From the NCBI RefSeq assembly GCF_958304185.1, contig NZ_OY284433.1:1178001-1242000 (forward strand): DNA of 64,000 nt. Reading direction: 5' to 3'. The notes under the pieces were generated by a model, which had not been told where the DNA came from, searched no databases, and saw only the letters and a program-made list of their open reading frames with translations. Position numbers and translations under genes: made by a program. The stretch is from an uncultured Erythrobacter sp. (GTDB taxonomy: Bacteria; Pseudomonadota; Alphaproteobacteria; Sphingomonadales; Sphingomonadaceae). Shown here in pieces: positions 4,783-35,739 of the stretch. How positions within the stretch are numbered: the stretch's first letter is position 1; each line of letters begins with the position of its first letter.

Positions 4783-4890
4783 GGCAAAGCGGCTAGCACC
4801 AGTGGCCGAGCGGGGCAATTCGCTCTGGTGTCAGGGGCGGTTTTGGGTATGGTGCCGCTTGGGGTGCGCGCTATCCAAGGGGGAGGATAG

Positions 4891-7428
4891 GTGGGCGATG
4901 TTTACACAGTCGCGATCATCGGGTCTGGCCCTGCCGGACTAAGCGCAGCCGCGCGTGCAGCGGCCCTCGGGCTGAGCCATGTGCTGCTCGAAAAGACCGA
5001 CCACCTCTCGGACACGATCTACAAATACCAGAAGGGCAAGCACGTCATGGCGACGCCCAGCAATCTGGTGCTGCGCTCCGACATCGATTTCGAGGCTGGC
5101 AAGCGCGAGGTGATCCTCGGATTGTGGGACGAACAGATCGCGGGCCACAAAGTCAATGTGAAGTACCACGCCGAAGCCAAGGCGATCCGCGGCACCGGCG
5201 CGGCGATCCCCGGCAGCGTGCAGCAACTCGTCACCCGCGCGAGGGACGGCACCAAGTCCGTGCGCGAGATTCAGCGCCACGCTCCGCCCTATGCGATCGA
5301 GTTGACAAGCGGCGAGGTCGTGATGGCGCAAAACATCATCCTCGCCATCGGCACGCAGGGCAATCCCAATCGGATGCGCTGCCCCGGAGCGGACCTGCCG
5401 CACGTGCAATACCAACTCGACGATCCGGCGGAGTATGTCGACGAGCATATCATCATCGTCGGCACCGGAGACGCCGGGATCGAGAACGCGCGCGGCCTCG
5501 CCGAAGACCCGGCGCAGCGCAACACCGTCTCGATCCTCAACCGTGGCACGGAGTTTCCGACCGCCAAGGACGCCAACGTCAAGGCGCTGAACGCCGACCA
5601 CGAAGCCGGCAAGCTGATGATCCGCACCGAGAGCGAGACCAAGTCGATTGAGCCGGGCTGGATCACACTAACCACCCGCGATGGCGAAATTCGCATTCCG
5701 TGTGACCGGATCATCGCCCGCATCGGTTCGGCCCCGCCGCGCGCCTTCGTCGAGGAATGCGGGATCGAATTTTCGAGTGAGGACCGCAGCGCCTTCCCCA
5801 AGCTGTCCCCGGTGTTCGAAAGCACCGCGCCGGGCATCTTCGTGATCGGGGCGCTGGCAGGCTATCCGCTGATCAAGCACTGCATGAACCAGGGCCACGA
5901 TGTCATCGAGTTCATCAACGGCAACACCGAACTAAAACCCGCCGACGAGCCGATCATCGCCGCCAAGTTTGCAGGGCTTCCCGGCAACCGCAGCACCGGC
6001 GAATGGCTCGAATTCCTGCGGACCAATGTGTCGATCCTGGGCGGCATGAACCCGCTGCAGATGCGCGAATTCATGCTCGACAGCGAAGCGAAGTTCTTCG
6101 CGCCCGGCGAGGTGATCTTTGAACGCAATGCCCCCGGATCATCGCTGTTCGGCATCGCCAGCGGATCGGTCGCGGTCGAGGTCAATCCGGCTGACCCGTC
6201 GATCACCATTCCCATCGAAGCCGGATCGATCTTTGGCGAAGTCGGCCTGATCTCGGGACGCCGTCGGGGTGCGACGATCCGCGCGGCGGAAGACACCATC
6301 GTGGTCGAAATCTCGCGCCTCGCCGCGCTCAAGCTGCAATCGCAGGTGCCCTCGGCCAAAGCGGAGATCCAGCGCATCTCGATCGAGCGGCAATTGCTCC
6401 AGATGTTCGGATCGGGCCTGACCCGCGAGGATGTCGCGCCGCTGGTCGATGCGGCGCAGGTGATGGAAAAGCGCGCAGGCGAGGTGGTGGTCACCGAAGG
6501 CGCGGACGACAAGGACGTCTTTATCATCCGGCGCGGGTCGATGATCGTCGAAAAGCAGATCGGCGACCGGCCGGTGTTCCTGTCCTACCTCCCCGCAGGC
6601 TCATACTTCGGCGAGATGGCGGTGATCGACGGCAGCTTGCGCACTGCCACCGTCAAGGCCGCGATCAAATCCGAAGTCATCCGTCTGCCGGGCGAAGGCT
6701 TCCTCGAATTGCTCGAGCGCAACCCCAAGCTGCGTGAGCGGGCGATGACTGACATGGCCACGCGCCGCGCCACCAACGCCTTTATCGAAGGGCAGAAAGA
6801 CAGCTTTTCCGGCGCAGTCGATCTCTATTCCAAAACCGCGCAGTTCCTCGTCGACAACGGGATCGGCGAGGCGACCGATGTACTGCTGATCGACGAGCAA
6901 CTGTGCATCGGCTGCGACAATTGCGAGAAAGCCTGCGCTGACAGCCATGACGGCCTCTCGCGCTTGGACCGAGAGGCGGGCAAGACCTACGCGCACCTCC
7001 ACGTCCCGACATCGTGCCGCCACTGCGAACACCCGCACTGCATGGCCGATTGCCCGCCCAACGCAATCAAGCGCGGCCCCGATGGCGAGGTGTTCATCGA
7101 TGAAACCTGCATCGGCTGCGGCAATTGCCAGCGCAACTGCCCCTATGGCGTGATCCGCATGGACGCCAAACCGCCCAAGAAGCCCAGCCTGCTCCAGTGG
7201 ATGCTGTTCGGCAAAGGCCCTGGCCCGGGCGAAGCGTCCTATAGCTGGCGCAAGAAGGCGGCCGAGAAAGAAGGCCCGGCCAAGCCCAAGCAGGCGATCA
7301 AGTGCGATATGTGCTCCGGCATCGATGGCGGCCCTGCCTGCGTGCGCGCCTGCCCGACGGGCGCTGCGATTCGTGTCAGCCCTGATAAGTTCCTGACCTT
7401 CACCAAGCTGACCGAGGACGCCGAGTAA
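4891..7428 (+). CDS. FAD/NAD(P) oxidoreductase fused to two cNMP-binding domains and a four-cluster ferredoxin
   Basis: An 845-residue cytoplasmic multidomain protein starting at GTG 4891 behind GGGGGAGGATAG. Residues 1-340 are a two-dinucleotide flavoprotein of the TrxB/YpdA fold: FAD motif GSGPAG at 11-16 and NAD(P) motif GTGDAG near 191. The redox CxxC of thioredoxin reductase is absent. Residues ~395-510 and ~518-640 are two cyclic-nucleotide-binding domains, each with a phosphate-binding cassette (FGEVGLISG-RRRGAT and FGEMAVIDGSLRTAT) that keeps the Glu and Arg. Residues ~668-835 are a DmsB/HycB-like ferredoxin with four cysteine groups beginning C672-C675-C678-C682 (CIGCDNCEKAC). Inferred role: NAD(P)H-driven electron entry gated by cAMP or cGMP, delivering to the membrane protein encoded next. 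First gene of a tightly packed operon. Confidence 0.85.
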   Translation: MGDVYTVAIIGSGPAGLSAAARAAALGLSHVLLEKTDHLSDTIYKYQKGKHVMATPSNLVLRSDIDFEAGKREVILGLWDEQIAGHKVNVKYHAEAKAIRGTGAAIPGSVQQLVTRARDGTKSVREIQRHAPPYAIELTSGEVVMAQNIILAIGTQGNPNRMRCPGADLPHVQYQLDDPAEYVDEHIIIVGTGDAGIENARGLAEDPAQRNTVSILNRGTEFPTAKDANVKALNADHEAGKLMIRTESETKSIEPGWITLTTRDGEIRIPCDRIIARIGSAPPRAFVEECGIEFSSEDRSAFPKLSPVFESTAPGIFVIGALAGYPLIKHCMNQGHDVIEFINGNTELKPADEPIIAAKFAGLPGNRSTGEWLEFLRTNVSILGGMNPLQMREFMLDSEAKFFAPGEVIFERNAPGSSLFGIASGSVAVEVNPADPSITIPIEAGSIFGEVGLISGRRRGATIRAAEDTIVVEISRLAALKLQSQVPSAKAEIQRISIERQLLQMFGSGLTREDVAPLVDAAQVMEKRAGEVVVTEGADDKDVFIIRRGSMIVEKQIGDRPVFLSYLPAGSYFGEMAVIDGSLRTATVKAAIKSEVIRLPGEGFLELLERNPKLRERAMTDMATRRATNAFIEGQKDSFSGAVDLYSKTAQFLVDNGIGEATDVLLIDEQLCIGCDNCEKACADSHDGLSRLDREAGKTYAHLHVPTSCRHCEHPHCMADCPPNAIKRGPDGEVFIDETCIGCGNCQRNCPYGVIRMDAKPPKKPSLLQWMLFGKGPGPGEASYSWRKKAAEKEGPAKPKQAIKCDMCSGIDGGPACVRACPTGAAIRVSPDKFLTFTKLTEDAE

Positions 7429-8306
7429 TGGCGAGCCGGGCGAAGTCTGGGGCAGGCGGCACGGGCCGGTTCTCGCAGGACGAGAAGCGGCGCGATTCCG
7501 ATCATGTCAGCTTCCTCAAGCATCGCGGCTACCGCTGGCTATGGATCGCGCTGGCGCTCAGCGCGGCGAGTATTGCGGGCTATGCTTTGATCGATCAGGA
7601 GCCGCGCCCCAATGGCGGCACGTGGTATGGCTACACGCTCGGCACCATCGGGGTTGGGCTTATCGTTTGGCTTTCGCTGCTGGGCGTGAGGAAGCGGCGG
7701 ATCAATCCGGGCGCGTGGAGCCTCAAGGCATGGACTTCCGCCCACGTCTATCTCGGCCTGTCGCTGGTGGTGGTGGGGACGCTGCACACCGGCTTCCAGA
7801 TCGGGTGGAACGTCCACACGCTCGCCTATGTGCTGATGCTGCTGGTGATTGCGACGGGGATTTACGGCGTGGTGGTCTATGCGACCCTCCCCGCCAGCCT
7901 CAGCGCCAACCGCAAGGAAATGACCCGCGCGCAGATGCTCGACGCGCTGACCGCGATTGACCGCCAGCTGGAAAGCGCCGCGCAGCCGCTGGGGCGGGCC
8001 GAGGCCGACTTGGTGATCGCAGCCTTGGCGCAGGATGTGTTCTATGGCGGGCCGATTGCGCGACTGACGGGGCGTTATCCCGGCTGCGCGACGGCGCGCG
8101 CCTTGCAGGGCATGGGCGGCGGCTCGGATGCGACGGCGCGGGTGGCCGCGCTGCTGGAGCGGCGGCGTGAGCAGCTTGCCCAGATTCGCGGAGCCTTGCG
8201 CATTCGCGCGATGCTGGAAATCTGGCTGTTCATCCATATCCCGCTCACCATCGCCTTGATCGCTGCGCTGACCGCGCATGTGATCTCCGTGTTCTACTAT
8301 TGGTGA
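7428..8306 (+). CDS. Membrane cytochrome b-like protein
   Basis: A 292-residue integral membrane protein whose ATG shares one base with the preceding TAA (TAATG), implying translational coupling. About five hydrophobic segments are visible: near 38-55, 68-88, 103-125, 128-152 and 265-290. Histidines lie in or at the ends of helices: TSAHVYLG and GTLHTGFQ in the third, WNVHTLAY before the fourth, and IHIPLTIAL and LTAHVISVFYYW in the last. Paired helix histidines are typical of heme b ligands in cytochrome b561/ferric-reductase-like proteins. A soluble loop of ~100 residues (about 155-262) separates the fourth and last helices. Inferred role: accept electrons from the Fe-S domain of the upstream protein and pass them to the periplasmic cytochromes. 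No exact family is assigned. Confidence 0.65.
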   Translation: MASRAKSGAGGTGRFSQDEKRRDSDHVSFLKHRGYRWLWIALALSAASIAGYALIDQEPRPNGGTWYGYTLGTIGVGLIVWLSLLGVRKRRINPGAWSLKAWTSAHVYLGLSLVVVGTLHTGFQIGWNVHTLAYVLMLLVIATGIYGVVVYATLPASLSANRKEMTRAQMLDALTAIDRQLESAAQPLGRAEADLVIAALAQDVFYGGPIARLTGRYPGCATARALQGMGGGSDATARVAALLERRREQLAQIRGALRIRAMLEIWLFIHIPLTIALIAALTAHVISVFYYW

Positions 8307-8316
8307 CGGAGCGAAG

Positions 8317-10131
8317 ATGGCGTTCCTGATCCGCACCATCGATTTCACCGCTGCGGGGCGTGAGATTATCCGCGACCGTGTGCTGGAGCAGACCAGCCTC
8401 ACCGTAGGCCGCGCGGCTGAGAACGACATCCACCTCCCTGATCTGGCGGTGGAACAGAACCATGTGCGGATTGATTTGCAAGGCGATGGCACGCTCGGCG
8501 TCGCTGCGCTCGGAACACTCGGCTTTGCACTAGATGGCAGGGTGGTCATGGAAGGCACCATCGACCCGCGCACCGGGGGTGAAATTGCGCTCGGCGCAGC
8601 GCGGTTGGCGGTTGCCAGCGAGGCGGACGGCAACACCTCCATCACCATCCGCCAGGTCGCCGCTGACGAGGGGAAAGGCGACGCCTTGCGCGGCTTCGCG
8701 CTCGCCAGCGTGCTGCCGTCCAAGCGCGCGATGAGCTGGGCCTTCGCGGGCGCAATCCTGCTATTGCTCCTGCTGGTGCCGGTCGCCAGCCACCTGCTGC
8801 GCTCGCCTGCCAAGCCTGACCCCACCGGCAAGACCCCAGGTCAGGTGGTGCTGGACGCAGCATGGTCGTCTGGCGAGCTATCGCTGAAGCACCACAGCCT
8901 CGAGGATAATTGCGAAAGCTGCCACGTCGATGCCTTCGAGAGCGTACAGGATCAAACCTGCGTCTCGTGCCACAAGGACACCGGCGATCACGCCCCGATG
9001 CCGCGCCTTGCCAAAGGCAGGCCTGCGCTGACACCGGGCGACGCGCTGCAATGGCGCATCGCGGAAGGCTTCGGCAAGGAAGGCCCGCTCGGCTGCGTGT
9101 CGTGCCATTCGGAACACGAAGGCCCCAAGCGCCAAGCGGCGGGCGGCGAGGCGTTCTGTTCGGACTGCCACAATAAACTCGACACCCGGCTGACCGATAC
9201 GGCGCTGGCGAACGCCCATGATTTCGGCAAGGGCCACCCGCAGTTCCGCCCGGTCTATTTCGCCAGCTTCGGCGCGGCCAAGCCCGTGCGCGCGGCGCCG
9301 GGGGCGAAACCGGTTGAACGCTCCGGCCTCGTCTTCCCGCACGATGTCCACATCAACGCGCGCGGCGGTGCGGCGCGTATGGCGGTCAGCCTTTCACAAT
9401 ATGGTAAGCCCTTGGAATGCAATGATTGTCATACCCTGACAGCCGACCGAATGTCGTTCAAGGAGGTGAAGATGGAGGACTCCTGCGAGGGCTGCCACAG
9501 TCTGGTCTCCGGGCGCACGGCGGCGGGCGGGTTCAGCAAGCTGCGCCACGGCGATATCAAGGATCTGGCCGAGGATCTCGCGCGGATCTCGTCCGGCCCG
9601 CGCCCGCGCGTCGGCCCCGCCCGCCAGCGGCCCGGACAGATTGGCAGCGCCTCTCCCTATCGCGCGGATTTCGGCCGCCCAGTGCGCGCCTATATCGGGC
9701 TATCGAACGCGTTGTCGGCGGGCGGGGTCTGCACCGAATGCCACTTGCCGACCCGCGGCCCGACCGGGCAGGCCGATCTCATGCCGGTCAACCTGCCCGA
9801 CCGCTTCCTCACCAGCGGCTATTTCAACCACGAGGCGCACAAACGCGAGAAGTGCACCGATTGCCACGCGGCGGACACCTCCAAGGTGGCGAGCGATCTG
9901 CTGATCCCTAATCTGACAAGCTGCCGTGAGTGTCACCTCGGAGCGACTGCGGTGAGGACCAAAAAGATCGTGCCGAGCGATTGCGCGATGTGCCACGCCT
10001 ATCACCTGCCCGCAGGACAATGGCAGGGCTTGAGGCCGCCCAAAGGCCCCGCGCCGCATTACAAGCCGCCGCCCGCTCCTCCCAAGACGAAGGTTGCAGC
10101 GGTCTCGGCCAAGGCTAGGCAAAAGCCATGA
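8317..10131 (+). CDS. FHA domain - transmembrane - decaheme cytochrome c fusion
   Basis: A 604-residue protein. Residues ~1-110 form an FHA phosphopeptide-binding domain (VGRAAENDIHLPDLAV...NHVRI). A single membrane helix at ~139-161 (MSWAFAGAILLLLLLVPVAS) follows, so the FHA part faces the cytoplasm and the rest the periplasm. Ten CxxCH heme motifs lie between residues 199 and 560: CESCH, CVSCH, CVSCH, CSDCH, CNDCH, CEGCH, CTECH, CTDCH, CRECH and CAMCH. The tail is Pro/Lys-rich. Starts 10 bp after the membrane gene. Inferred role: membrane-anchored periplasmic multiheme relay whose cytoplasmic FHA domain could recruit a phosphorylated partner. Joining FHA to a decaheme domain is unusual. Confidence 0.85.
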   Translation: MAFLIRTIDFTAAGREIIRDRVLEQTSLTVGRAAENDIHLPDLAVEQNHVRIDLQGDGTLGVAALGTLGFALDGRVVMEGTIDPRTGGEIALGAARLAVASEADGNTSITIRQVAADEGKGDALRGFALASVLPSKRAMSWAFAGAILLLLLLVPVASHLLRSPAKPDPTGKTPGQVVLDAAWSSGELSLKHHSLEDNCESCHVDAFESVQDQTCVSCHKDTGDHAPMPRLAKGRPALTPGDALQWRIAEGFGKEGPLGCVSCHSEHEGPKRQAAGGEAFCSDCHNKLDTRLTDTALANAHDFGKGHPQFRPVYFASFGAAKPVRAAPGAKPVERSGLVFPHDVHINARGGAARMAVSLSQYGKPLECNDCHTLTADRMSFKEVKMEDSCEGCHSLVSGRTAAGGFSKLRHGDIKDLAEDLARISSGPRPRVGPARQRPGQIGSASPYRADFGRPVRAYIGLSNALSAGGVCTECHLPTRGPTGQADLMPVNLPDRFLTSGYFNHEAHKREKCTDCHAADTSKVASDLLIPNLTSCRECHLGATAVRTKKIVPSDCAMCHAYHLPAGQWQGLRPPKGPAPHYKPPPAPPKTKVAAVSAKARQKP

Positions 10132-11015
10132 GCGGGGCGGCCCTTTCCGCCGGGCGTGCTGTGCTGATCGCACAAATGACCGACATTCACGTCGGCTTTG
10201 CCCCTGACGAACAGCCCGAGGAGCTGAACCTCACCCGCTTCCGCGCGACTTTGGCGCGGCTGCTCAATGGCCCCAACCGGCCCGATCTGCTGGTGCTATC
10301 GGGCGACATTACCGATCACGGCGATCCGGAGAGCTTCGCCAAGACCGCTGAACTGCTGAAGGACTGCCCCTGCCCGATCATCCCGCTGGTCGGCAATCAC
10401 GATAGCCGCGCTGGCCTGCTCAGCGCTTTCCCGCAGGTCGTTCCGGCTGAGGGCGGGTTTCTGCACTATGTGGTCGAAGCGCCGCTGGGCTTGCGGATCA
10501 TCTGCCTCGATACGCTGGAGGACGGCCGACACGGCGGCGCCTTCTGCGAAATGCGCGCCGCGTGGCTGGCGGCGCGGCTGGCCGAGGCTCCCGACACGCC
10601 GACGCTGATTTTCATGCATCACCCCCCGGTGGTCGCCGGGATCGACTGGATGGACCCCGCGCCGGACGAGCCTTGGATTATGCGGCTGCGCAGCGTGCTG
10701 GAAGGGCAGCATCATGTGCAGGCAATCCATTGCGGGCACTTGCACCGCCCGATCACCACGCGCTTTGCCGGCATCCCGCTCGGCGTGACGCCGTCGGTCG
10801 CGCCGCTGGTGGCGATGGATCTGAACCCGATCAACAAGGACGTGCCCGACAACCGCGAACTCATCACCACCGAGCCGCCGACCTATGCGCTGCACCGCTG
10901 GGACGGGGCTGCGCTGGTGTCCCACTACGAGCGCGTCGGTGATTGGGAAGTACTGGCGCGGTTCCATGCCGGGCTGCAACCGATGATCGAAGGAATGTTT
11001 GCGGAAAGAGATTAG
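10128..11015 (+). CDS. CpdA-like cyclic-nucleotide phosphodiesterase (class III metallophosphoesterase)
   Basis: A 295-residue calcineurin-like phosphoesterase overlapping the preceding stop by four bases (ATGA). The metal-binding motifs are complete and in order: MTDIHVG, LSGDITDHG, VGNHDS, MHHPP and HCGHLHRP. This set and the length match CpdA-type 3',5'-cAMP phosphodiesterases. No signal peptide or membrane segment, so it should be cytoplasmic. Its place as last gene behind a protein with two cNMP-binding domains suggests that it resets the cyclic-nucleotide signal that gates that protein; this is inference from context. Some members of the family hydrolyse other phosphodiesters, so substrate is not certain. 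Confidence 0.8.
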   Translation: MSGAALSAGRAVLIAQMTDIHVGFAPDEQPEELNLTRFRATLARLLNGPNRPDLLVLSGDITDHGDPESFAKTAELLKDCPCPIIPLVGNHDSRAGLLSAFPQVVPAEGGFLHYVVEAPLGLRIICLDTLEDGRHGGAFCEMRAAWLAARLAEAPDTPTLIFMHHPPVVAGIDWMDPAPDEPWIMRLRSVLEGQHHVQAIHCGHLHRPITTRFAGIPLGVTPSVAPLVAMDLNPINKDVPDNRELITTEPPTYALHRWDGAALVSHYERVGDWEVLARFHAGLQPMIEGMFAERD

Positions 11016-11021
11016 TTCTTT

Positions 11022-11117
11022 CCCCCGCCCCGGGCTTGACCCGGGGCCCTGCTCCCTTGCCGATCACCACTCTCTCATAAAGAAAAGCTAGGCCCCGGGT
11101 CAGGCCCGGGGCGGGGT
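11022..11117. repeat. Inverted-repeat element, family A, copy 2
   Basis: Arms around CCCCGGGCTTGACCCGGGGC (11026-11048) and the inverted GCCCCGGGTCAGGCCCGGGG (about 11091-11112) enclose ~40 bp. It fills the gap between two convergent operons (stop codons at 11015 and 11126) and could act as a bidirectional transcription terminator. Confidence 0.75.
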
Positions 11118-11125
11118 GTGTGGTA

Positions 11126-14100
11126 TTACTTCCCCACTGCCGCCCGCTGCGCTCCCGTCGGCGCCACCCCAACCCAGCGCCTCATGTCGACATCATCGCT
11201 GACCTTCCACGGCACGCCGCTGCGGGTCATGAACAGGCGCTCCATCTCGGGCCGGGTGAAGGGCCGCGAGCCCAATCGCCCGAACACCGCCATCTGCCCG
11301 CCGGTCTCGTCCACCGCACGGTCGCGGTCGAGGCCCTTGGAAAGCGCAATCGCAGGCGAAGGCGTCTTGGCCCAGGCGATCAGCTCCGGCACCGGCGCGG
11401 GGCTGAAGCCGTAGAAATTGCGCTGGCTGTCCGGGCTGGTGAGTTGCAGCACCTTCATCCCGTTCCGCCCATCCGCCACGTAAGCGAACAGCGAGGCGTT
11501 GGTGGTGCCGACGATCACGTCCTCGGCGTCGTTGAGGGTGCCGTCCAACGTCACCTTCTGGAAAATGCGGGGGCTGCGCGGGTTTGTCACGTCGAGGATC
11601 ACCAACCCCTCACCCTTGGCGGCGACATAGGCATAGGTGCGCGCGATATACATCCGCCGCGCGTTGGCGAGCGGCACGGTTCCCTCTGGCACCGCAACCG
11701 GCGCGCGGAGCGAGGTGATGTCGAACAGCTTTACCCCGTCCGCGTCCGTGACCCAGAGGTAGCGGAACTGCACGGCCGAAGCGCGCGCATTGCGAAGCTC
11801 GCGCACGGCAGCGACCTTGGGCGCATCGGGGTTGGCGAGATCGACTACTACCAGCCCCTTGTCGGCTGTGATGAAGGCAACCTCGCCCGCCAGCGTGATG
11901 TGCTGCGCCCCGGTCAGCACCCCGCCGGGGTTCCACGCGTCCGAGCCATCGGTGAACACCTTGCGGGTCAACTTGTTGTTGCGGAATTCTCCGTCCGCCA
12001 GCGTGTTGACGTTGACGAGGATCAGGCCCTCGACCGCATCGGTCACGACCGCATAGTTGTAGATCGGCAGGAAGGCCTGCTCCTGATTGATCACGCGCAT
12101 CTCCGGCGTGCTGCGGGTCGGCGCGATAGGCTGGTTGGTGGGCAGCGCCATGCAGGTGGCGTTGGCGGTCTTGACGTTGGTGTCATGCCCGAGCGCCGAG
12201 AACGGCCCCTTCAGGATCCGCTCCGAGGTGCCCTTGTTGGCGATGCTCGCCACGTCATAGGCGGTGAACCCGCCCTTGCCGCTCGCGACGAACATATACT
12301 CGCCGCGCAGTTGCAGGCAGCCGACCCGGTCGCTGGTGCCTTCGTGGACGTTGACGAATTCCTCAAGCGGCTGAGTCTCACCGCTCATCTTGGCATCGAA
12401 AGTCTTGCCCCGCACCCAGTTCTTCAGCTCGCGCCCATTCTGGTCGACATGCAGCCCCCACCAATCGGGATAGGCATAGCGGTGGAGGTAGGAGCCGATC
12501 ACCGCCTGCGGCTCGTCATATTCGGTGACGCGGGTGGCTTGGAACCCGCCTTCGAGGCCAGTCCATGCGTTTAGCCCGACGAAGTTGACGTAGTTGGTGC
12601 CCAGCAGGAAGAGCTGCGCCATGATCGCGTTGTTATCGTCCTTGGCCGACAGGTGGCAATCGGTGCAGGTCTTGGTCTCGGTCTTGCGCACAGTGTGAGG
12701 GAAGTGCGGCGCGAAGGCTTGGCTGGAGAACCCGATGGCCGAAATCGGCGGCTGCTGCACATAGATCCGCTCGCGGTTGATATTGGTCGAGGACAACACC
12801 AGCGCCGAGGATGACCGCACCGGCGCGACCTGATTGCCCTTGGTGGTCTGGTGCTTGCCGAGCTGGAACATCTCGTCACGCGCGACCTGCGGGTTATAGG
12901 TGGCGAAGTTGCGCATCTCCCCGCCTTCGTATTTGTGCGATTTGGTCTTCCAGTTGGCCTCAATCGGCAGGTGGCATCCGCCACAACTCGTCGTCCACGA
13001 AAGGTGGCAGGTGAAGCACGCCATCTCCGGATCGCGGTGCGCACGGTCGTCGATCCCGATGCCGGTGCCGAATTCGAAATTGCCGGTTTCCGCGCCGTAA
13101 CGGCTGACGAGCTTCGCCCGCGCGGCCTTGGCGTTGAACACCGGAGTGGCAGGATCGACCGAGTCCTTGACGAGGCTCATCTCCCATTCGAGCTTGGGAT
13201 CGACGATTGATCGCTGGACCAGCTTTCGCCTGCCGTCTGCGCCTTCCATCCATTCGAACCGGCGCTTGCCATCGGGGTTGCGCAGCAGGCTGAGGTCGTG
13301 GCCTTCGGGCGGCGCGGCGGGGCCGCTGGTGCGCAGGGTGGGATAGGCATCGGGCGTGCCGTGGCAATCCTTGCAGGTGATCTCGATCGCGTTGGCAACT
13401 TCGCCATAGATCAGGCCATTGCCGTGGCTGTCCTGCTCGAAATGGCAATCGGCGCATTGCAGGCCGACTTCGGCGTGGATGTCCATCATGTGGACCGCCT
13501 TGCCGGGGTTCACACCGGCGGGGACGAACTTGCCCTCGCCTTCCTTGCGCCACTTATCCGGATCGTCGGGGTCGACGATCTTGCCGTCCGCATCGAGCAG
13601 ATTGCCTTCGCGGTCGCGCTTAAAGATCGCGCGGAAGTTCCAGCCGTGGCCGTGATAATCGGCGAACTGGGTGTCCTTGAGTTTGGGGTTGAGGTCATAG
13701 ACGTTGCGCACGAATTCCAGATCGCCCCACTTCCCGCGCGCCGCTGCGGCTTCCGGGTTGCGGTCGTTGATCGCGCGCACTTCCTCGGCCGTGGGGTATT
13801 TCTGCTGTTCGGGCCACATTGATTGGGCGTCGCTCTCGTAATCCCACATGGTGTAGCCGAGGAACGAGTTCAGGAAGATGTTGGGCTGGTGCATGTGGCA
13901 GTTCATGCACTGGCTGGTCGGGATCGCGCGGGTGAAGACGTGTTGGAGCGGGTGGCCCTTCTCCTTCAGCTGACCGCCCACCGTCAGCCCGTCATCGGCG
14001 CGCTTACCCGGAGCCGCTTCGTGATCGTGATCGTCATGGCCCGGCTGCTTCACCGCGCCGTGCTTCGTCTCACCATGGCCCGCTGCCGCGTGCTCGATCT

Positions 14101-15241
14101 TTTCCGCGATGGTCGGATCGGCGGTGATGCTCTGCCCGTCACGCCCGTATTGCGCATAGATCAGCGAGTGGCGTGGCTCGCGGTCATTGGCATAGACCAC
14201 GTGGCAGCTCGCACAGCCTGAATGGCGGTAATCGCCCGGCTGGTCATTGGTGCCAAGGAACCACGTGAAAGGATCATTGAGGCGGGTCTTGTGAATGTTA
14301 AGCGCCGGGATCGCCACGCGCAGACCCGTGCCGGGGCCGCGATTGGATTGCTTGAGGTCGGGCCGACCGGGCTCTTCGAGCCGCTGGATCGCGCCGCTCG
14401 GGTTAGGCAGGCCGATCTCGGGGAACTGCGAGTTGATCGTGCGACCGCCGCGTTCGAACACGCGGAACACATCGCCTGGCGGGATCACCTGCCAGGTGGG
14501 GAGCGGATACATCTCGGCCAAAACGCCGCGAGCGACTTGATCTTCCGACAACACGCCCCCTGGACCCGCGCCGGGCGAGGTGATCTTCGCGGGCAACCCA
14601 TCGCGGGTGTAGGCCTCGCCCAGCAGGTAATTCTTGAACGGCAGAATCCCGTTATTGTAGCTCGCCCCGCCCCACAGCATCGCGCCTGACGCCATGATCG
14701 AGCGTTCCGCCGCCTCGATCGACTGAATGTGACACGACCCGCAGGCCTCGCGCGCCACGCGGTAGTCGGAGGGGTTCACGAACTTCACGAACTCCGGCGC
14801 TTCCTTGTTGAGCAAGGTGTAGGACCGCTTCGGGTTGGCCGAGGAGGGGAAGTGCCAGCTGTCAGGATATGTCGGCAGCACGTGGGCGGTGTCGCGGGCG
14901 GCGACGTAATCGGGGTGATCGTGGGGAAGCTCGGAATTGCCGCGCACCTTGGGGTTGCCGCCGTGGCAATCGGTGCAACCCAGCCGCACTGCGGGTGAGA
15001 CGTGCATGGTCGGCGCGTCGGTCTTGACGTGGCAGGTGTTGCAGCCTTCGGACTTGGCATTCATCTCGGCGACTGATTGCCGCTGCGGCGCGGGCGGCGC
15101 GAAGACGGCGGTGTAATCGCGCTTGACCGGCTTTTCCTTGTCCGCCGCCTGCGGAGCGCCTGCGAACAGTGACACAGCGAGCACCAGCGCCGCAGCCAGT
15201 AGCGCGAAGTGTCGGGTGAGAGATTGGCCAAGCTTCAACAT
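11126..15241 (-). CDS. Periplasmic decaheme cytochrome c with C-terminal LVIVD beta-propeller
   Basis: A 1371-residue exported protein with a signal peptide (about residues 1-33, ending APQAA). Ten CxxCH motifs run from C67 to about residue 861: CNTCH, CTDCH, CGSCH, CASCH, CMNCH, CADCH, CKDCH, CFTCH, CGGCH and CTDCH. Extra histidine-rich stretches (HDDHDHEAAPG) may supply axial ligands. The last ~400 residues carry LVIVD-type repeats (GLVVVDLANPDAPKVA, GLVILDVTNPRSPRIF), which form a surface beta-propeller in other proteins. The chosen ATG shares a base with the TGA of the barrel gene upstream (TGATG). Last gene of the minus-strand operon. Inferred role: large electron-transfer module docking on the outer-membrane barrel; substrate unknown. 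Confidence 0.85.
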   Translation of the reverse strand: MLKLGQSLTRHFALLAAALVLAVSLFAGAPQAADKEKPVKRDYTAVFAPPAPQRQSVAEMNAKSEGCNTCHVKTDAPTMHVSPAVRLGCTDCHGGNPKVRGNSELPHDHPDYVAARDTAHVLPTYPDSWHFPSSANPKRSYTLLNKEAPEFVKFVNPSDYRVAREACGSCHIQSIEAAERSIMASGAMLWGGASYNNGILPFKNYLLGEAYTRDGLPAKITSPGAGPGGVLSEDQVARGVLAEMYPLPTWQVIPPGDVFRVFERGGRTINSQFPEIGLPNPSGAIQRLEEPGRPDLKQSNRGPGTGLRVAIPALNIHKTRLNDPFTWFLGTNDQPGDYRHSGCASCHVVYANDREPRHSLIYAQYGRDGQSITADPTIAEKIEHAAAGHGETKHGAVKQPGHDDHDHEAAPGKRADDGLTVGGQLKEKGHPLQHVFTRAIPTSQCMNCHMHQPNIFLNSFLGYTMWDYESDAQSMWPEQQKYPTAEEVRAINDRNPEAAAARGKWGDLEFVRNVYDLNPKLKDTQFADYHGHGWNFRAIFKRDREGNLLDADGKIVDPDDPDKWRKEGEGKFVPAGVNPGKAVHMMDIHAEVGLQCADCHFEQDSHGNGLIYGEVANAIEITCKDCHGTPDAYPTLRTSGPAAPPEGHDLSLLRNPDGKRRFEWMEGADGRRKLVQRSIVDPKLEWEMSLVKDSVDPATPVFNAKAARAKLVSRYGAETGNFEFGTGIGIDDRAHRDPEMACFTCHLSWTTSCGGCHLPIEANWKTKSHKYEGGEMRNFATYNPQVARDEMFQLGKHQTTKGNQVAPVRSSSALVLSSTNINRERIYVQQPPISAIGFSSQAFAPHFPHTVRKTETKTCTDCHLSAKDDNNAIMAQLFLLGTNYVNFVGLNAWTGLEGGFQATRVTEYDEPQAVIGSYLHRYAYPDWWGLHVDQNGRELKNWVRGKTFDAKMSGETQPLEEFVNVHEGTSDRVGCLQLRGEYMFVASGKGGFTAYDVASIANKGTSERILKGPFSALGHDTNVKTANATCMALPTNQPIAPTRSTPEMRVINQEQAFLPIYNYAVVTDAVEGLILVNVNTLADGEFRNNKLTRKVFTDGSDAWNPGGVLTGAQHITLAGEVAFITADKGLVVVDLANPDAPKVAAVRELRNARASAVQFRYLWVTDADGVKLFDITSLRAPVAVPEGTVPLANARRMYIARTYAYVAAKGEGLVILDVTNPRSPRIFQKVTLDGTLNDAEDVIVGTTNASLFAYVADGRNGMKVLQLTSPDSQRNFYGFSPAPVPELIAWAKTPSPAIALSKGLDRDRAVDETGGQMAVFGRLGSRPFTRPEMERLFMTRSGVPWKVSDDVDMRRWVGVAPTGAQRAAVGK

Positions 15242-17094
15242 CAGTAGGTCAGCACCACGTTGGCGAGGATCGAAACAAACTCCTGTCCGCCGCCGCGCGC
15301 GGTGAACAGGTCCTTGAAGCCGTCGCCTGCAACAAGTGTCGCGGCAGACAGGCGAAAAACGAGGTTCTGATTGGCCTTGGGCCGCCAGATCGCGGCGGCC
15401 GATAGGTCGAAGCCGATCTCGCGCGGGATCGAGCCTTCGTTGCGCAGCACTTGCAGCGTCGCGGTGTTCTCGAACCACAGGTGATTGGCGTTGGCCGACA
15501 GGCGAAACTGCGGCGTCAGATCGAAATCCGCCCCGACTCCGGCGAGGATCAGGCCGGGGTTGTTGAAATTGCTCTGCCCCTGCTCCTTGGAACTGCGCAG
15601 CGAATTCAGCAGGCCATTTCTGCCGTTGATGCTGACCGCCCTGCCCCCGCCCGCAAAGGGGATGGTCTGGCGGATCCAGTAGGACGTATCCGCGCCCGCA
15701 AAGACCGGGTTTTCAAAGATCGCGTCGAACCCGCCTTCGGTGTCGTCATAGGGATCGCTGTCCCCGCTGGCATAGGCGGCAGACAGGCGGAAACGCATCC
15801 AGTTGCGGTCGTAACTCGCCTCAACCGCCGCAAACTGCGCGTTGATATTGGCGGGGCGATCGGTGAAGAAACTGTTCCGGTCCTCCCCCAGCGCCCAGTA
15901 GAAACTGCCGGTGAGGTTTACCCGCCCCAGCCGCCCGTCAACATTGTAGCCGAGATAGACCGCGTCATATTCCCGGCCCCGCAGTGTGCCGAGCAAGGCC
16001 GGGCGGACTGGGAAGCCGTTGGTGTCGATCTGGATGTCGTCCGCCTCGCGGTTCATGTTGTAGACCACGGTGATCTGGCTGGTCAGCGCCGGGATCAGGA
16101 AGTCCTGACGATAGGCATTGGCGACGAACACGAAATCATCCCGCGGGCTGCGCAGGATCGCGTTGAGGCCGGAATTGGTGTCCTTCTCTAGCCGCCAGAA
16201 CGCGCCGAGATTGAACTGGAAGCGGTTGTTGTCGCGCGAGCCGAACAGGCGCACGCCTAGCTGCTGATCGTTGAACAGGAAGCCGCGGAAATCCGACTGG
16301 AACGGCTGGATGCCCGCGCGCAGTGAGATGAAGTCGAACCGGTCATTGTCGAACTGGCTGAAGTGGTAATCGACGAAGGCTTCCTGCACCCCGAGGAAAT
16401 GGTCGAGCCGGTGCGACGGGCGCGAGGGTTCCACAAACAGCACGCGCCTTTCGGGCACGTCGACATAGTTGACGTTGTAAGCCAGCGTGACGCGGTATTC
16501 GATGCTCGGCGGCTTGAAGGTGGTCGAGCCTTTTAGCAGCGCGAAACCGGCGATGAAGGTCTGGCTGAAGACCTGGCTGAAGTCGTTCCCGAACACGTCA
16601 TTGCGGTCAGGGTCTTCGGTGGTTTGAACGCCGACGGGGATGGGGAAGGTGCGCGGTTCGTACACGCTATCGCTGATGAGGTTGGCGACGAAGAACCAGT
16701 CGTCTTCCTTGATCGGCAGCCACGGCACCTTGGCACGGTTGATCGGCCGGTCGCCCTTGTAGGTGTTCTGGTTGTAAGGATCGAGCAGGTTCTCTTTGAC
16801 CAGCCCAAGGCTCTCGATCAGTCGCCAGCGATCGGGGATGGGCAGTTGGTCGGTCGGAAAGGCGCTGGGCGGCGGTGCGCGGATGGCACCTTCGTTGCTT
16901 TGCTCGATCCGCTCGGGCAGCGCAGGCGTGTAGCCGGGGCGCTGGCGGCCATCGATGATGTCGGGATCGACCGGGGGGACATCTTGCTCCCAGTCCTGCG
17001 ACGGTTCTTCGCCGGGCGGCGCGGGCGGTGGCTTCATGTCCTCAGGCGGCGGGGCTGCCTGAAGCAGCAGCAGAGCGGGCAGCAGCGAGCCCAT
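15241..17094 (-). CDS. Outer-membrane beta-barrel protein of the multiheme cluster
   Basis: A 617-residue protein with a short hydrophobic N-terminus (MGSLLPALLLLQAAPPP), a Pro-rich linker to about residue 90, and then a long series of alternating amphipathic strands. It ends in an aromatic residue (ANVVLTY), as expected for BamA-assembled barrels. No cysteine or heme motif is present. The start is ATG 17094, directly abutting the stop of the lipoprotein gene. Position between a surface-type lipoprotein gene and a periplasmic decaheme cytochrome gene parallels the porin-cytochrome arrangement of MtrB or PioB, but I cannot show sequence membership in either family. An alginate-export-like porin is the alternative. 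Confidence 0.65.
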   Translation of the reverse strand: MGSLLPALLLLQAAPPPEDMKPPPAPPGEEPSQDWEQDVPPVDPDIIDGRQRPGYTPALPERIEQSNEGAIRAPPPSAFPTDQLPIPDRWRLIESLGLVKENLLDPYNQNTYKGDRPINRAKVPWLPIKEDDWFFVANLISDSVYEPRTFPIPVGVQTTEDPDRNDVFGNDFSQVFSQTFIAGFALLKGSTTFKPPSIEYRVTLAYNVNYVDVPERRVLFVEPSRPSHRLDHFLGVQEAFVDYHFSQFDNDRFDFISLRAGIQPFQSDFRGFLFNDQQLGVRLFGSRDNNRFQFNLGAFWRLEKDTNSGLNAILRSPRDDFVFVANAYRQDFLIPALTSQITVVYNMNREADDIQIDTNGFPVRPALLGTLRGREYDAVYLGYNVDGRLGRVNLTGSFYWALGEDRNSFFTDRPANINAQFAAVEASYDRNWMRFRLSAAYASGDSDPYDDTEGGFDAIFENPVFAGADTSYWIRQTIPFAGGGRAVSINGRNGLLNSLRSSKEQGQSNFNNPGLILAGVGADFDLTPQFRLSANANHLWFENTATLQVLRNEGSIPREIGFDLSAAAIWRPKANQNLVFRLSAATLVAGDGFKDLFTARGGGQEFVSILANVVLTY

Positions 17095-19047
17095 CTAGAG
17101 CCCCTCGCACACGTTCTGCGCGGCCGTATCGAGGAACGGCGCAAACGGGCAATTGACGTAGCGCAGCCGCACTTGCCGAGAGCCGACCGCGACCACGATC
17201 CGGTCCGCGCGAATGGCGTTCGGTGCGTTGCTCAGCCCGCCACCGGCCCGCAGCGCGCCATTGTTGAGGCCGAGAAAGCTGATCATGTCGTCTTGATCGA
17301 TCCCGTCGCCCGAAACCCCGATGCCTCCAACCAGCACATTGCCGCGATAGACCGGCACCGATCCGGGGAAGATCTGGATGCCATTGTCGAGCCGCGTCGC
17401 GCCCGCCGTGACTTGCGGCAGGCTAGTGCAAATACGCGGGGTGTCCTGCGCGCTGGCTCCGGTGACGAATGCGAGATGCTGCGCGAGATTGCCCACGATC
17501 AACGCGCTTTGCAGCCCGGTCGAGAACGGGTTGAACTGCGCAATCGGGCGTGACAGCGGGCCGTTGGGCTGCCCTACCTCGCCATCGGGGAAGTAGGGCC
17601 GCGACAGGTTGCCGCCCGCGCGGTCGGAGAAGGCGAAGCCGCCGGTCAGCGCCGTAGGATCGCCGAGGAACGAGCGCGTTCGGGCAACGAACTGCGGCAC
17701 TTCTCCGCCAGCCGCCAGCAATTCATTGGCGGCGAATGCGCCCGAGAAGAAATTGGCCGTCCGCGCCTTCTGCAAGCTCACATCGATGCCGAAGATCGGC
17801 GCATCGGGGGAGCGCACAAGGCCCAGCACCTGCCCCCGCGTATCGACCAGACTGATGGTCACCTGCGCGCGGCTGTCGAGCGGCTGGCGGATCTGCGCCC
17901 GCGCGCGGCTCATCACAGTGAAGGCTTCTTCGAGGATCACCCGCGCCTCTGCGGCGGTCAGCGGGCTCGCCACATCGCCCACGTCCGTTCCGCCGCGCAC
18001 CGGAAAACGGTTCGCCCCCGCGCCGTTCGACAGCACGAAGGCATCGCGGTTGGCGAACTCCGCTGACGTCGAGGCGCGCACGCCCGAAGCCTCACTGCCA
18101 TAGGTCGCGCCCGCCAGCAGCGCCGTGCCCATGTAATAGCCGGTCACCGGCACCAATGCGCCCGCCGTTCCTGCAAAGCTGGCACCTGCGACATTGCTGA
18201 TCTGATTATACTCGACGTCGGTGTAACGCAGCGATGTGCCGTCGGCGGTGATGCGGTCGGCGCGGATGTTGATCGGGGCTTCGAAGCCCACCGTCCCGGC
18301 GAGCGCAATCGCCTCGTCCAGATCGACATCGCGGTCGAGCACGTTGGGGTCGAAGCTGTAGCTGCCGTCAGCGATCACCCCGATGCCGCCGACCACCACG
18401 CCGTTCTGGTAGAGCGGGAAGCCGCCGGGGTCGGCTGCGAGGCCCAGCGGCGAACGCTTGGGACCAATGAAGCCGTCGCTCGCCCGCGCGGCGAGGTCGG
18501 AACAGGGCAGCTGGCTGAACTGCACCCCGAACAGCGGGCCGCTTTCCAAGCCTGCGGTGGTCGGCGCAGGTGGGAAATGTTCCTGCACGATGAAGCTCGC
18601 CGTGCGGCTGGAAAAGGCATTGCCGCCGCTCGAAAGATAGGCGCCGGTGATCGCCTTGGCGATGGCCGCTCCGGCGCTCGGGATGGTGAGGCCCTGCGCG
18701 TCCTGATTGGTGCCATCGGGCGCGGAGGGAATGCGCGCGGTGGGTGCGGCTCCCGGCATGGCGAAGACGCCTAGCACATTGCCCACCCGATCCGTCACCG
18801 CAATGGTCGCCGCCACTCCGCGCGCCCGCGCTTCGGCGGCGGCCTGAGCGATAATCGTGCCGACCTCCGCGCTGGTGAGACTTTCGGCGGCAGGGACGGA
18901 AAACACCTGCCCGGCAGGCGGCGGCGTGGGAGTCGGCGCGGGCCCACCGCCGGTCGCGCCGCCTCCACCCGAGCTGCTGCCCCCACCCCCGCAGGAGGCG
19001 AGCACCAAGGCGCTTGCCGCAACCCAGAATGTCCCACCCTTGCGCAT
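17095..19047 (-). CDS. Lipoprotein with two GlcG/HbpS-like (DUF336-type) domains
   Basis: A 650-residue protein with a lipobox LVLASC placing the lipidated Cys at residue 19, followed by a Gly/Ser/Pro linker to about residue 48. Two homologous halves follow, each opening with an AEARARGVAATIAVTD-like helix/strand and containing the HbpS/GlcG signature (GGIGVIADG near residue 230, GGIGVSGDGIDQDD near 575). HbpS-type domains are known to bind heme or act as extracellular redox sensors. It lies 2 bp after the pentaheme cytochrome gene and directly before the barrel gene, so an outer-membrane lipoprotein partner of the barrel is likely. It contains no CxxCH motif, so it is not an MtrC-type cytochrome. 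Confidence 0.7.
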   Translation of the reverse strand: MRKGGTFWVAASALVLASCGGGGSSSGGGGATGGGPAPTPTPPPAGQVFSVPAAESLTSAEVGTIIAQAAAEARARGVAATIAVTDRVGNVLGVFAMPGAAPTARIPSAPDGTNQDAQGLTIPSAGAAIAKAITGAYLSSGGNAFSSRTASFIVQEHFPPAPTTAGLESGPLFGVQFSQLPCSDLAARASDGFIGPKRSPLGLAADPGGFPLYQNGVVVGGIGVIADGSYSFDPNVLDRDVDLDEAIALAGTVGFEAPINIRADRITADGTSLRYTDVEYNQISNVAGASFAGTAGALVPVTGYYMGTALLAGATYGSEASGVRASTSAEFANRDAFVLSNGAGANRFPVRGGTDVGDVASPLTAAEARVILEEAFTVMSRARAQIRQPLDSRAQVTISLVDTRGQVLGLVRSPDAPIFGIDVSLQKARTANFFSGAFAANELLAAGGEVPQFVARTRSFLGDPTALTGGFAFSDRAGGNLSRPYFPDGEVGQPNGPLSRPIAQFNPFSTGLQSALIVGNLAQHLAFVTGASAQDTPRICTSLPQVTAGATRLDNGIQIFPGSVPVYRGNVLVGGIGVSGDGIDQDDMISFLGLNNGALRAGGGLSNAPNAIRADRIVVAVGSRQVRLRYVNCPFAPFLDTAAQNVCEGL

Positions 19048-19049
19048 GG

Positions 19050-20435
19050 CTATTGCAGCCTGCCAATCGCGCCGCTGGCCGATTTGAGCGCAGCGCGGAA
19101 ATCGGCCGGGCGATAGGCGTTGGGTTCTTCCACCGCCTTGTATGCCCGGGCGATATCGCCGCGGATGCCTGCCGCTGCGCCCTGTGTCACCCGGCCTTCG
19201 CGCACCAGCGCATTGAGCAGCGTGTCGACCGCCATCACCGCCTGCACCGATCCGGCATAGTCGGTAAAGCGCGGCGTCGTCGCCTCACCTGCAATGATCG
19301 CGATCACCTTGAAAGCGTCTGCATCGGCGTAGGCACGAGCCGACAATGCATCGGCCAAGACCCCCGCATGGGCCGACAAGGCCTGCGCAGCGGCACGCGC
19401 CTCGCCCGGCCCTTGCCCCATCGCTGCGTGGAAGCCGCGCGCGGCATTTTGGAACTTCGCCGCCTCGCCCGGCACCAGCGCGCCTGCGACCGCTTGGAGC
19501 ATGATCATGTTCTCATCATTAAACGGCGGGTTGCCAAATGGGATCGGCCGCGCGGGATTGGTCTCGAAGGTGAGCTTGCGCTGCGGGCCATCGGTGATCG
19601 TCCGGTGGCACGAATGGCAATCGTAGAAATAGAACTGCGGGAAGGCGCCCTCGTAAGCGAATTTGGGCTGCGCGAAGAGGCTTGTCGCGCGGCGCACCGC
19701 CTCGGCCTGCCCCACGGCCCAGAACCGCACTGAATTGGGCGTAGCCTTTCGCGCGGTGTAATCGCCGTCGATATTGTGGTGCTGCTGAAGCGCGCTGAAC
19801 AGATCAAGCTCGAACGAGACGCGCGGGTGGCCCGCGGCCATCATCGCATGGGTGACGAACTGGCCCGGCTTGGATGATCCGTAATGGCAATCGAGGCAGA
19901 CGTTGGCCCGCGCCTTGGGGTTGTCGAGCGGCGTCAGCCCGGCCGCGACGTTCGAGGCATGGGTGGCGGGCAGCGCATAGTGCTCTGCCAGCCATGTCCC
20001 GCCCGAAGGCCCATGGCAGCTTTCGCACCCGACCCCGTCGGTGACAGTGAACTTCGCACCGCGCTGACCGGCGGGGACATTGGTGGAATGGCATCCGAGG
20101 CACGCCGGGGCCGATTGCGCATTACCCAGCCCGAGGCTCGCTGCAATTTGCTGGCCGCGCCGGCCGCCGAGCACGGCATAGGCGCGGGAATGGGCGCCGC
20201 TGGGGGATGAAGGTTCCTGCCAGGTCGCGATCTCGTCCTGCTGGACAACCGCGCCATTGCCTTCGGCCCGGCCGTGGCAGGTCGATCCGGCGCAGCTGGC
20301 GACGCCTTCGAATGTGCCGTTACCGATAGCGACAGAGGCAGGGTAGAGCGCGGCGATTGCGAACACCGCCGCGACGCGCAAGGCTCCCCGCCGCTGCGCA
20401 AGGCCTGTGATCACATCCGCCCAAAATCGCCTCAT
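19050..20435 (-). CDS. Pentaheme cytochrome c (cytochrome c554-like), with one CX4CH site
   Basis: A 461-residue exported protein starting at ATG 20435, nine bases after AGGGGG. The signal sequence is about residues 18-38 (GALRVAAVFAIAALYPAS). The heme motifs are CAGSTCH (C48-x4-C53-H54, one residue spacing longer than usual by two), CLGCH, CESCH, CLDCH and CHSCH. The first half resembles the cytochrome c554/multiheme NrfB-type fold; the last ~170 residues are helical and heme-free. First gene of the operon that continues with the lipoprotein, barrel and decaheme genes (gaps of 2, 0 and -1 bp), so the 183 bp upstream must hold the promoter. Confidence 0.8.
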   Translation of the reverse strand: MRRFWADVITGLAQRRGALRVAAVFAIAALYPASVAIGNGTFEGVASCAGSTCHGRAEGNGAVVQQDEIATWQEPSSPSGAHSRAYAVLGGRRGQQIAASLGLGNAQSAPACLGCHSTNVPAGQRGAKFTVTDGVGCESCHGPSGGTWLAEHYALPATHASNVAAGLTPLDNPKARANVCLDCHYGSSKPGQFVTHAMMAAGHPRVSFELDLFSALQQHHNIDGDYTARKATPNSVRFWAVGQAEAVRRATSLFAQPKFAYEGAFPQFYFYDCHSCHRTITDGPQRKLTFETNPARPIPFGNPPFNDENMIMLQAVAGALVPGEAAKFQNAARGFHAAMGQGPGEARAAAQALSAHAGVLADALSARAYADADAFKVIAIIAGEATTPRFTDYAGSVQAVMAVDTLLNALVREGRVTQGAAAGIRGDIARAYKAVEEPNAYRPADFRAALKSASGAIGRLQ

Positions 20436-20618
20436 CCCATCCCCCTGAGATGCCCGAGAGCCGGATTGCCCTAAACCGTAACAGGCTAGCACTCGCCCCG
20501 ATGCGATGCTTGTAACCCTGCGTCTGGTTTGATCGTCCGCCTACCGATTCCCCCGTATGGCCGACCCCTGCCCCCCTTGTCCCAAGCTTGGGGCCGGGAT
20601 GCAACAGGCAATGCGGTT
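20436..20618. promoter_or_regulatory. Intergenic region carrying the multiheme operon promoter
   Basis: This 183-bp gap separates the start of the minus-strand multiheme operon from the end of the secretion/cyclase operon. No sigma-70 promoter with good spacing stands out. A perfect 12-bp palindrome CCCAAGCTTGGG lies at about 20580-20591 and could end the upstream transcript. The promoter is inferred from gene layout only. Confidence 0.35.
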
Positions 20619-23409: not shown

Positions 23410-23423
23410 TGCCGTCCTGGCGC

Positions 23424-26483: not shown

Positions 26484-26484
26484 G

Positions 26485-33609: not shown

Positions 33610-33610
33610 C

Positions 33611-35482: not shown

Positions 35483-35739
35483 GGTCCCCCCCAAAAGCTC
35501 ACGCCCGGGCAGGCGCTATGCGCGCGCTCGCGGCGTTGTGCCTTTCCCCATGATCCACACGCCAACAGCTAATGTCGCCGGTGAACCTACGACCCCTCGT
35601 ATGCAAGGAGACTACTCGGGCCCACCGCAAACACAAGCGCGCAAAGGCCAGCAAGGGCGCTTGCAGGACACTTTGTCGCGTTTGAGCAACTTTAGGAGGC
35701 GCAACCAGCGCCGGGCAGGGAGCTTAAGGGGAGAAAGCG
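35483..35739. promoter_or_regulatory. Region upstream of the tpsB operon
   Basis: Gene-free 257 bp between the lipoprotein stop and the tpsB start, both on the minus strand. I see no clean sigma-70 hexamer pair, no strong hairpin and no repeat family shared with other gaps here. A promoter is expected only because the operon starts after it. Confidence 0.3.

Follow-up and report, generated by a model that had tools for sequence, protein, structure and literature searches.

The window analysed here is a stretch of 64,000 nucleotides from an uncultured Erythrobacter sp. (contig NZ_OY284433.1), and at positions 4891–20435 it carries eight genes, A to H, for three multiheme cytochromes and their partner proteins. 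On sequence grounds this locus is best read as a new variant of the PCC4-type porin–cytochrome conduit, a system so far only predicted, with conserved cyclic-nucleotide domains in the enzyme at which electrons would enter. All eight open reading frames (ORFs) were intact where the original prediction had placed them, and its description of two convergent operons with 24 CxxCH motifs and one CX4CH motif spread over three proteins was confirmed. Both operons are densely packed, operon 1 occupying 4891–11015 on the plus strand and operon 2 occupying 11126–20435 on the minus strand.

As described by He et al. (2017, PMC5566968), the predicted PCC4 combines a porin with multiheme cytochromes of 4, 5 and 10 heme sites and with an inner-membrane protein marked by SGXXG and two WX3HX13H motifs; in its subgroup II a pfam13247 Fe-S gene lies ahead of the inner-membrane protein. 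In operon 1 of the window, A (4891–7428) encodes 845 amino acids (aa), in which Pfam recognized a FAD/NAD(P) oxidoreductase domain, then two cyclic-nucleotide-binding domains (CNBDs), then a 4Fe-4S domain. B (7428–8306, 292 aa) is a predicted diheme cytochrome b of the membrane, marked by two WX3HX13H motifs and [S/T]GxxG, and C (8317–10131, 604 aa) would consist of an FHA-like cytoplasmic domain, a transmembrane helix and a periplasmic decaheme cytochrome. The last gene of this operon, D (10128–11015, 295 aa), starts 4 bases before the end of C and encodes a metallophosphoesterase of the CpdA/SpdA type. Operon 2 encodes H (19050–20435, 461 aa), a pentaheme cytochrome (CX4CH plus four CxxCH) with a c554-type N-terminal half and a helical C-terminal half; G (17095–19047, 650 aa), a predicted lipoprotein with HbpS-like domains (Pfam); F (15241–17094, 617 aa), a predicted outer-membrane barrel of AlgE-like fold with 18 long strands in its model; and E (11126–15241, 1371 aa), a decaheme cytochrome, predicted to be exported, that lacks a lipobox and ends in an LVIVD beta-propeller.

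Four loci were taken as PCC4-type by their layout, with porins assigned by position, and used for comparison in place of published PCC4 sequences. The fullest layout, that of L311, consisted of a pentaheme cytochrome, a protein of 459 residues in the porin position, an FNR-type flavin/2Fe-2S reductase, a tetraheme cytochrome, an Fe-S protein with two CNBDs, an inner-membrane protein and a decaheme cytochrome; L307 and L308 showed most of this layout and L309 its last three genes. Comparison with these loci by hhalign gave values of 100 % for the CNBD/Fe-S part of A, 98.9 % for B, 99.0 % for C and 98.8 % for the N-terminal half of H (66.5 % for H with the L311 pentaheme cytochrome), whereas E reached only 28.5 and 22.5 % with the PCC4-type pentaheme and decaheme cytochromes, and F 0.7 % with the porin-position proteins of L311 and L307, which had no Pfam match. 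Profiles of E, F and G found no match in the four loci. This pattern indicates a common inner core that includes the cyclic-nucleotide domains, combined with a different outer module, and the claim that the genes match no other named system was therefore not upheld as stated. At least one pocket motif was present in each of the four PCC4-type A proteins. The wording ‘cyclic nucleotide’ was not found in the main text of PMC5566968, where only that wording was sought.

The flavin/NAD(P) part of A has a disulphide-reductase fold and lacks CxxC in residues 1–400, and the Fe-S part matched PF13247 at 43 bits (cut-off 26.2). An alignment of 23 A sequences contained 16 invariant cysteines, enough for four [4Fe-4S] clusters, and both cyclic-nucleotide pockets retained an invariant glutamate and arginine (E450/R459 and E575/R584), the residues by which such domains bind the ribose and phosphate groups of their ligand. 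The cyclic-nucleotide domains thus retain their binding signature. Pfam related B to cytochrome b561, weakly and below the cut-off. Two WX3HX13H motifs were found in B from all of the 54 other positive genomes of the window's order, the Sphingomonadales, in which motif conservation was scored throughout; B has five invariant histidines, four of them inside these motifs, and the pattern has been linked to two b hemes (He et al., 2017, PMC5566968). In B, G144 and G147 were invariant and preceded by S or T; this result was used for [S/T]GxxG, as a broader count was nonspecific and matched the N terminus of the window's own B. From these features B is very probably a diheme cytochrome b. In one family outside the class, A and B were fused in a single open frame of about 1120 residues (G664 and G556; L304 3052–6420 and L305 7850–11203), which suggests direct contact between the two proteins. 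In a separate locus, L310, a 24-heme cytochrome (7795–9744, minus strand) lay beside a membrane protein that resembles B weakly; about 6 kb away was a flavoprotein with a match to A's N-terminal part.

In C, Pfam detected FHA (20.9 bits, cut-off 20.7) and cytochrome c7/c3 domains. The N-terminal FHA-like domain is followed by one transmembrane-like segment (136–165) and then by ten hemes over about 360 residues, a spacing close to the approximately 33 residues per heme of MtrA homologues (PMC5566968). G31, R32 and H49 of the FHA-like domain were invariant in 25 sequences, and a YscD-type profile matched this domain as well. The decaheme cytochromes of L307, L308 and L311 have a Cys-rich start where C has its FHA domain. 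D, a metallophosphoesterase by Pfam, carried DxH, GD, GNH and GHxH, the motif set of such enzymes, in 53 of 53 sequences, and scored below the NCBIfam cut-offs for SpdA (125.2 of 400) and CpdA (75.4 of 225). It lay closely 3′ of C, with a median gap of 31 bases (range −29 to 290, 51 pairs).

The c-type heme sites number 25 (24 + 1), with ten CxxCH motifs in C, ten in E, and four CxxCH and one CX4CH in H. Matches to TGYN6TGYCAY in the DNA of the whole 3.29-Mb genome numbered 262, compared with 93 for the reversed control, so that 24 in-frame motifs within 15.5 kb cannot be put down to chance. Among the other positive genomes, C had ten motifs in 54 of 54 and E in 52 of 54; L106 and L132 showed nine, and in both of these ORFs the chosen start falls within the tblastn match. 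H had its 4 + 1 motifs in 51 of the 53 seen, the exceptions being L083, where the stretch was cut at its edge, and L136, where the gene was split over two frames. Division of an H gene between two overlapping open frames was recorded at G133:C4:309569-310899. Outside the motifs, 16 histidines were invariant in E, nine periplasmic ones in C with one more near-invariant, and six in H with two near-invariant, enough for bis-His ligation of every heme. With B counted as a diheme cytochrome b, the inventory very probably comprises 25 c hemes and two b hemes.

That the two operons belong together was apparent from their distribution in the order. C, E, F and H were each searched in the same 246 genomes, and each was found in 55, the identical 55, which belong to 19 of 71 genera; these counts are uncorrected for the species tree. 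Independent occurrence of the two halves in most genomes, which would have counted against the original prediction, was accordingly not seen in the order. The sets fetched from the other 54 genomes with the system all showed A, B, C, E and F. D was lacking from the set of G155 and G from that of G245, which leaves 53 for each. H was likewise seen in 53; the fetched stretch of G215 was cut, and its H was found on another contig. Presence was patchy within genera (11 of the 17 genomes listed for g1 had the system and six lacked it), which points to joint and repeated gain or loss. C and E lay on one 20-kb stretch in 28 genomes and on different stretches in 26. Of the latter, G159 had both genes at contig ends, probably through an assembly break, and G105 and G155 had them about 16–30 kb apart; in the remaining 23 they were farther apart or on different contigs, and eight of these 23 (G230, G193, G203, G065, G119, G035, G080 and G110) carried both modules on one contig at distances of about 90 kb to more than 2 Mb. 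Such co-occurrence without linkage argues for joint function. Pairwise distances of C and E correlated with r 0.87 (51 genomes) and 0.94 (the 24 with modules on different stretches), kinship being uncorrected. By this co-inheritance the two halves are one system, with the core A-B-C-G-F-E-H.

The system extends beyond the order. When 289 genomes of the class were scanned with an E profile, 20 were positive. Of these, 17 lie outside the order, and all 17 also had a C match (in G252 both C and E were fragments); among seven of the 269 E-negative genomes searched alongside, there was one weak partial C match, in G005. All of the 17 but G252 supplied a stretch for comparison of gene order. In these 16 genomes, from other alphaproteobacterial families, the genes formed a single block; the order A-B-C-G-F-E on one strand was found in 14, and B-C-G-F-E-A in two genomes of one family, in one case across two contigs. 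Within the fetched stretches, which are all that this count covers, H was present in nine of the 16, in one of them as a fragment at the edge. A phylum-wide draw yielded E in six of 349 genomes, all from the window's class, while a named collection contained at least 545 stretches encoding an E relative; the titles of the 80 that were kept covered Porphyrobacter, Erythrobacter, Qipengyuania, Altererythrobacter, Sphingobium, Novosphingobium, Sphingomonas, Sphingopyxis, Blastomonas, Phenylobacterium and Caulobacteraceae. A search with B across the phylum was positive in 19 of 349 genomes, from which ten loci were fetched. Outside the class, L302 (G665) had A-B-C-G-F and L303 (G531) had A-B-C.

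Pfam placed the HbpS-like domain of G in three stretches, and a lipobox-like motif was present in 44 of 53 G sequences. H was assigned to cytochrome c554 by Pfam and by a profile match to 1bvb (E 8e-7); a GTG at 20492, upstream of the annotated start, is also a possible start. For H, a known reductase fold such as that of NrfA was considered and dropped, as the best fold match was not significant (E 1.2) and sequence profiles led to cytochrome c554, and the lipobox count for H was discarded as an artefact of its first heme motif, which resembles a lipobox. The HbpS-like domains of G would suit a role in iron or heme assimilation, in which Fe(II) would be released by reduction outside the cell, heme would be dealt with by G, and uptake would go through the barrel. 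A TonB-receptor plug protein near A-B and C in L304 and a resemblance of the H model to EfeO and the alginate-binding Algp7 (Foldseek E 1.5–3.5, probability 0.63–0.72) agree with that role, but the resemblance is not significant, the H model has a mean predicted local distance difference test (pLDDT) score of 65, and 25 c hemes would be a costly outlay for assimilation, which we consider very improbable.

F had no Pfam match. Its model (mean pLDDT 65, predicted template modelling score 0.67) was closest in a Foldseek search of the PDB to AlgE (E 6e-16, template modelling score 0.60–0.67 depending on the target, about 11 % identity), followed by chitoporin, MOMP and OprD-type porins, and MtrB was absent among the best 50 of 814 matches. 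Only one of 34 F members matched the Alginate_exp profile PF13372, with E 0.063. The possibility that the barrel belongs to an unrelated porin family, which would have told against the original prediction, was thus borne out for the fold of the model and not for the sequence. E, for which the start was corrected to the ATG at 15241, has its ten hemes spread across about 800 residues ahead of the LVIVD propeller (Pfam). Sequence searches with E and F found no relatives among solved structures.

Several of these results weigh against a cyclic-nucleotide-gated conduit that reaches the outside. With about 80 residues to each heme, E does not resemble a compact wire, and a lipobox was found in none of 54 sequences. 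The chief doubt concerns the barrel, since an 18-strand F is too narrow to sheath a decaheme cytochrome as MtrB is thought to do. With F not MtrB-like and E devoid of a lipobox, exposure of any component at the surface is at most putative; the proposed path from cytoplasm to cell surface is represented by components from the cytoplasm via the inner membrane to the barrel. Within the inner half, a stricter two-pocket pattern in A was satisfied in 45 of 54 genomes. FHA domains that read phosphothreonine carry the signature GR and S-x-x-H; at the H−3 position C has E, D, N, M and others in place of the usual serine that contacts phosphothreonine. None of the stretches from the 16 genomes outside the order yielded D, which beyond the order was seen only in G760, so a local phosphodiesterase is not essential; D looks like a lineage-specific addition in the sphingomonad line. 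Finally, G665, G531, G556 and G664 carry A, B and C (and H was found in one of the four), yet are not among the E-positive genomes, as judged against the E-positive set of a draw of the same size and kind with two candidates scored per genome; the outer part is thus not universal.

The same properties of E and F give rise to the strongest rival explanation, a reductase that acts on a soluble substrate in the periplasm or at the outer membrane, with F as a substrate channel of AlgE/OprD-like type, E as a decaheme enzyme and no electrons leaving the cell. The best structural matches of F are channels for small molecules and polysaccharides, and E shows short local similarity to ExtM from a Geobacter selenite/tellurite cluster, whose porin, ExtI, has been linked to selenite and tellurite reduction (PMC5877670). 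The ExtM match (NCBIfam NF040943), however, covers only 52 residues at 55.7 bits against a cut-off of 800. The inner half, moreover, is common with PCC4-type loci, and PCC4 was predicted to be an external conduit (PMC5566968). ExtB, with 18 predicted transmembrane segments, belongs to a conduit cluster reported as sufficient for electrode reduction (PMC6148476), and 18 strands do not, on that account, exclude a conduit. We regard a reductase of this kind as unlikely, though a serious competitor.

For the PCC4-related conduit, a path may be proposed in which localisation and order of transfer are predicted from domains and gene content. Electrons from NAD(P)H would pass to the FAD of A, through four [4Fe-4S] clusters and on to the two b hemes of B, from there to the membrane-anchored periplasmic decaheme cytochrome C and the pentaheme cytochrome H, and then to E, which would be held at the barrel F with the lipoprotein G and would deliver them to an external or outer-membrane acceptor. 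Electron entry would be switched when cAMP or a related nucleotide binds the pair of domains that separates the flavin part of A from its Fe-S part, and D, where present, would lower the nucleotide locally. The opposite direction would have an external donor, such as Fe(II), Mn(II) or humics, oxidized at E and electrons carried inward to B and to quinone or NAD(P)+. Multiheme chains are reversible in principle, and PCC4 itself was modelled as feeding the quinone pool with electrons from a donor outside the cell and was reported in iron oxidizers (PMC5566968). Against uptake, the flavin/NAD(P) domain fused to A fits the oxidation of NAD(P)H, and no donor oxidase turned up, although no dedicated search for one was made. 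Erythrobacter, Sphingobium, Novosphingobium, Sphingomonas, Caulobacteraceae and others are mostly aerobic heterotrophs, as is Porphyrobacter, which also speaks against uptake. Export is the more likely direction, and uptake appears distinctly unlikely.

Overall, we favour an NAD(P)H-linked porin–cytochrome conduit, related to PCC4 but distinct from it, which has an outer-membrane module of its own and carries cyclic-nucleotide sensors, and consider the arguments for and against this reading evenly balanced. A broader version is doubtful, namely that the locus represents a distinct and widespread conduit family of aerobic Alphaproteobacteria, in which a cyclic nucleotide allosterically gates the entry enzyme and so switches electron export at the protein level, and in which the AlgE-like barrel, the HbpS lipoprotein and the decaheme-propeller protein form a new route to or through the outer membrane that replaces the PCC4 porin on the shared inner core. 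If the conduit reading is right, supposedly aerobic heterotrophs would carry a trans-envelope electron path, and the role of its 25 c-type hemes could be tested in culturable strains. Predicted conduits of this kind would then share cyclic-nucleotide domains, making the direct gating of electron transfer by a second messenger a testable proposition.

The surroundings of the locus were also compared. Among the 40 largest clusters of neighbouring ORFs, the biggest was a gene for a CcmI/CycH-type cytochrome c biogenesis TPR protein (Pfam), found at 48 of the 97 loci compared; in the window it is the divergent neighbour of A (3832–4818, minus strand). Outside the order it lay upstream of A in only two of seven loci scanned (L261 and L262, of one family), where it is perhaps a dedicated maturation factor, and it was therefore left out of the core. 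Ten further neighbours outside the order were scanned and revealed no recurring partner except a trypsin-like protein, which two genomes from a single family had in common. The 110 bases between the convergent operons (11016–11125) contain a GC-rich inverted repeat that is terminator-like on the minus strand; terminator-like sites across the region were at chance level in total. A separate cassette at 20619–35494 (minus strand) encodes a 261-aa protein without a Pfam match, presumably FecR-like, a CHASE2 adenylate/guanylate cyclase, a CHAT-TPR protein, a repetitive protein of 2398 aa and a ShlB-type secretion barrel. The 261-aa protein and the cyclase adjoin H and had strong matches in 13 fetched loci. 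The cyclase was considered as a part of the system and rejected, since the cassette that holds it also contains CHAT and two-partner-secretion genes.

Several known systems resemble the locus in part. A search of titles and abstract openings in open-licence PMC literature found no description of an FHA or LVIVD multiheme cytochrome, nor of this cluster in sphingomonads. MtrCAB, MtoAB and PioAB likewise combine a periplasmic decaheme cytochrome with an outer-membrane barrel, but the porins of Mto and Pio have 24–32 segments (PMC5566968), compared with the 18 modelled strands of F, and the DmsE decaheme family TIGR03508 was matched by C at 24.4 and H at 21.4 bits, below the cut-off of 192.2. The Geobacter clusters ExtHIJKL and ExtKLMNOPQS each contain a porin-like protein, several multiheme cytochromes, a b-type cytochrome and an Fe-S protein; there the Fe-S partner is of the Rieske type, and a cyclic-nucleotide domain is not mentioned in the portions of the Ext accounts at hand. 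The Uet pathway of Tenderiales, compared by its description (PMC10734462), has a porin, multiheme cytochromes and NHL repeat proteins, but the NHL proteins are separate and the cytochromes are undecaheme, tetraheme and triheme. PCC3 shares an inner-membrane protein of the same motif type, a porin and multiheme cytochromes; according to He et al. (2017, PMC5566968), the median numbers of heme sites in its cytochromes are 34 and 21, and its porins have up to 42 segments, in contrast to 10, 10 and 5 sites and 18 strands here. PCC4 is the closest of these systems. B, like the inner-membrane protein of PCC4, has two WX3HX13H motifs and [S/T]GxxG; A precedes B as the pfam13247 Fe-S protein precedes that protein, and a decaheme cytochrome follows in both. 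Both also have a multiheme cytochrome of c554 type and flavin/NAD reductase domains, and cyclic-nucleotide domains are shared with the PCC4-type loci compared. The window's locus departs from PCC4 in having heme sites of 10, 10 and 5 (the last with CX4CH) rather than 4, 5 and 10, an FHA-like domain in C, and a flavin domain of disulphide-reductase fold fused to A where PCC4 has a separate FNR-type protein.

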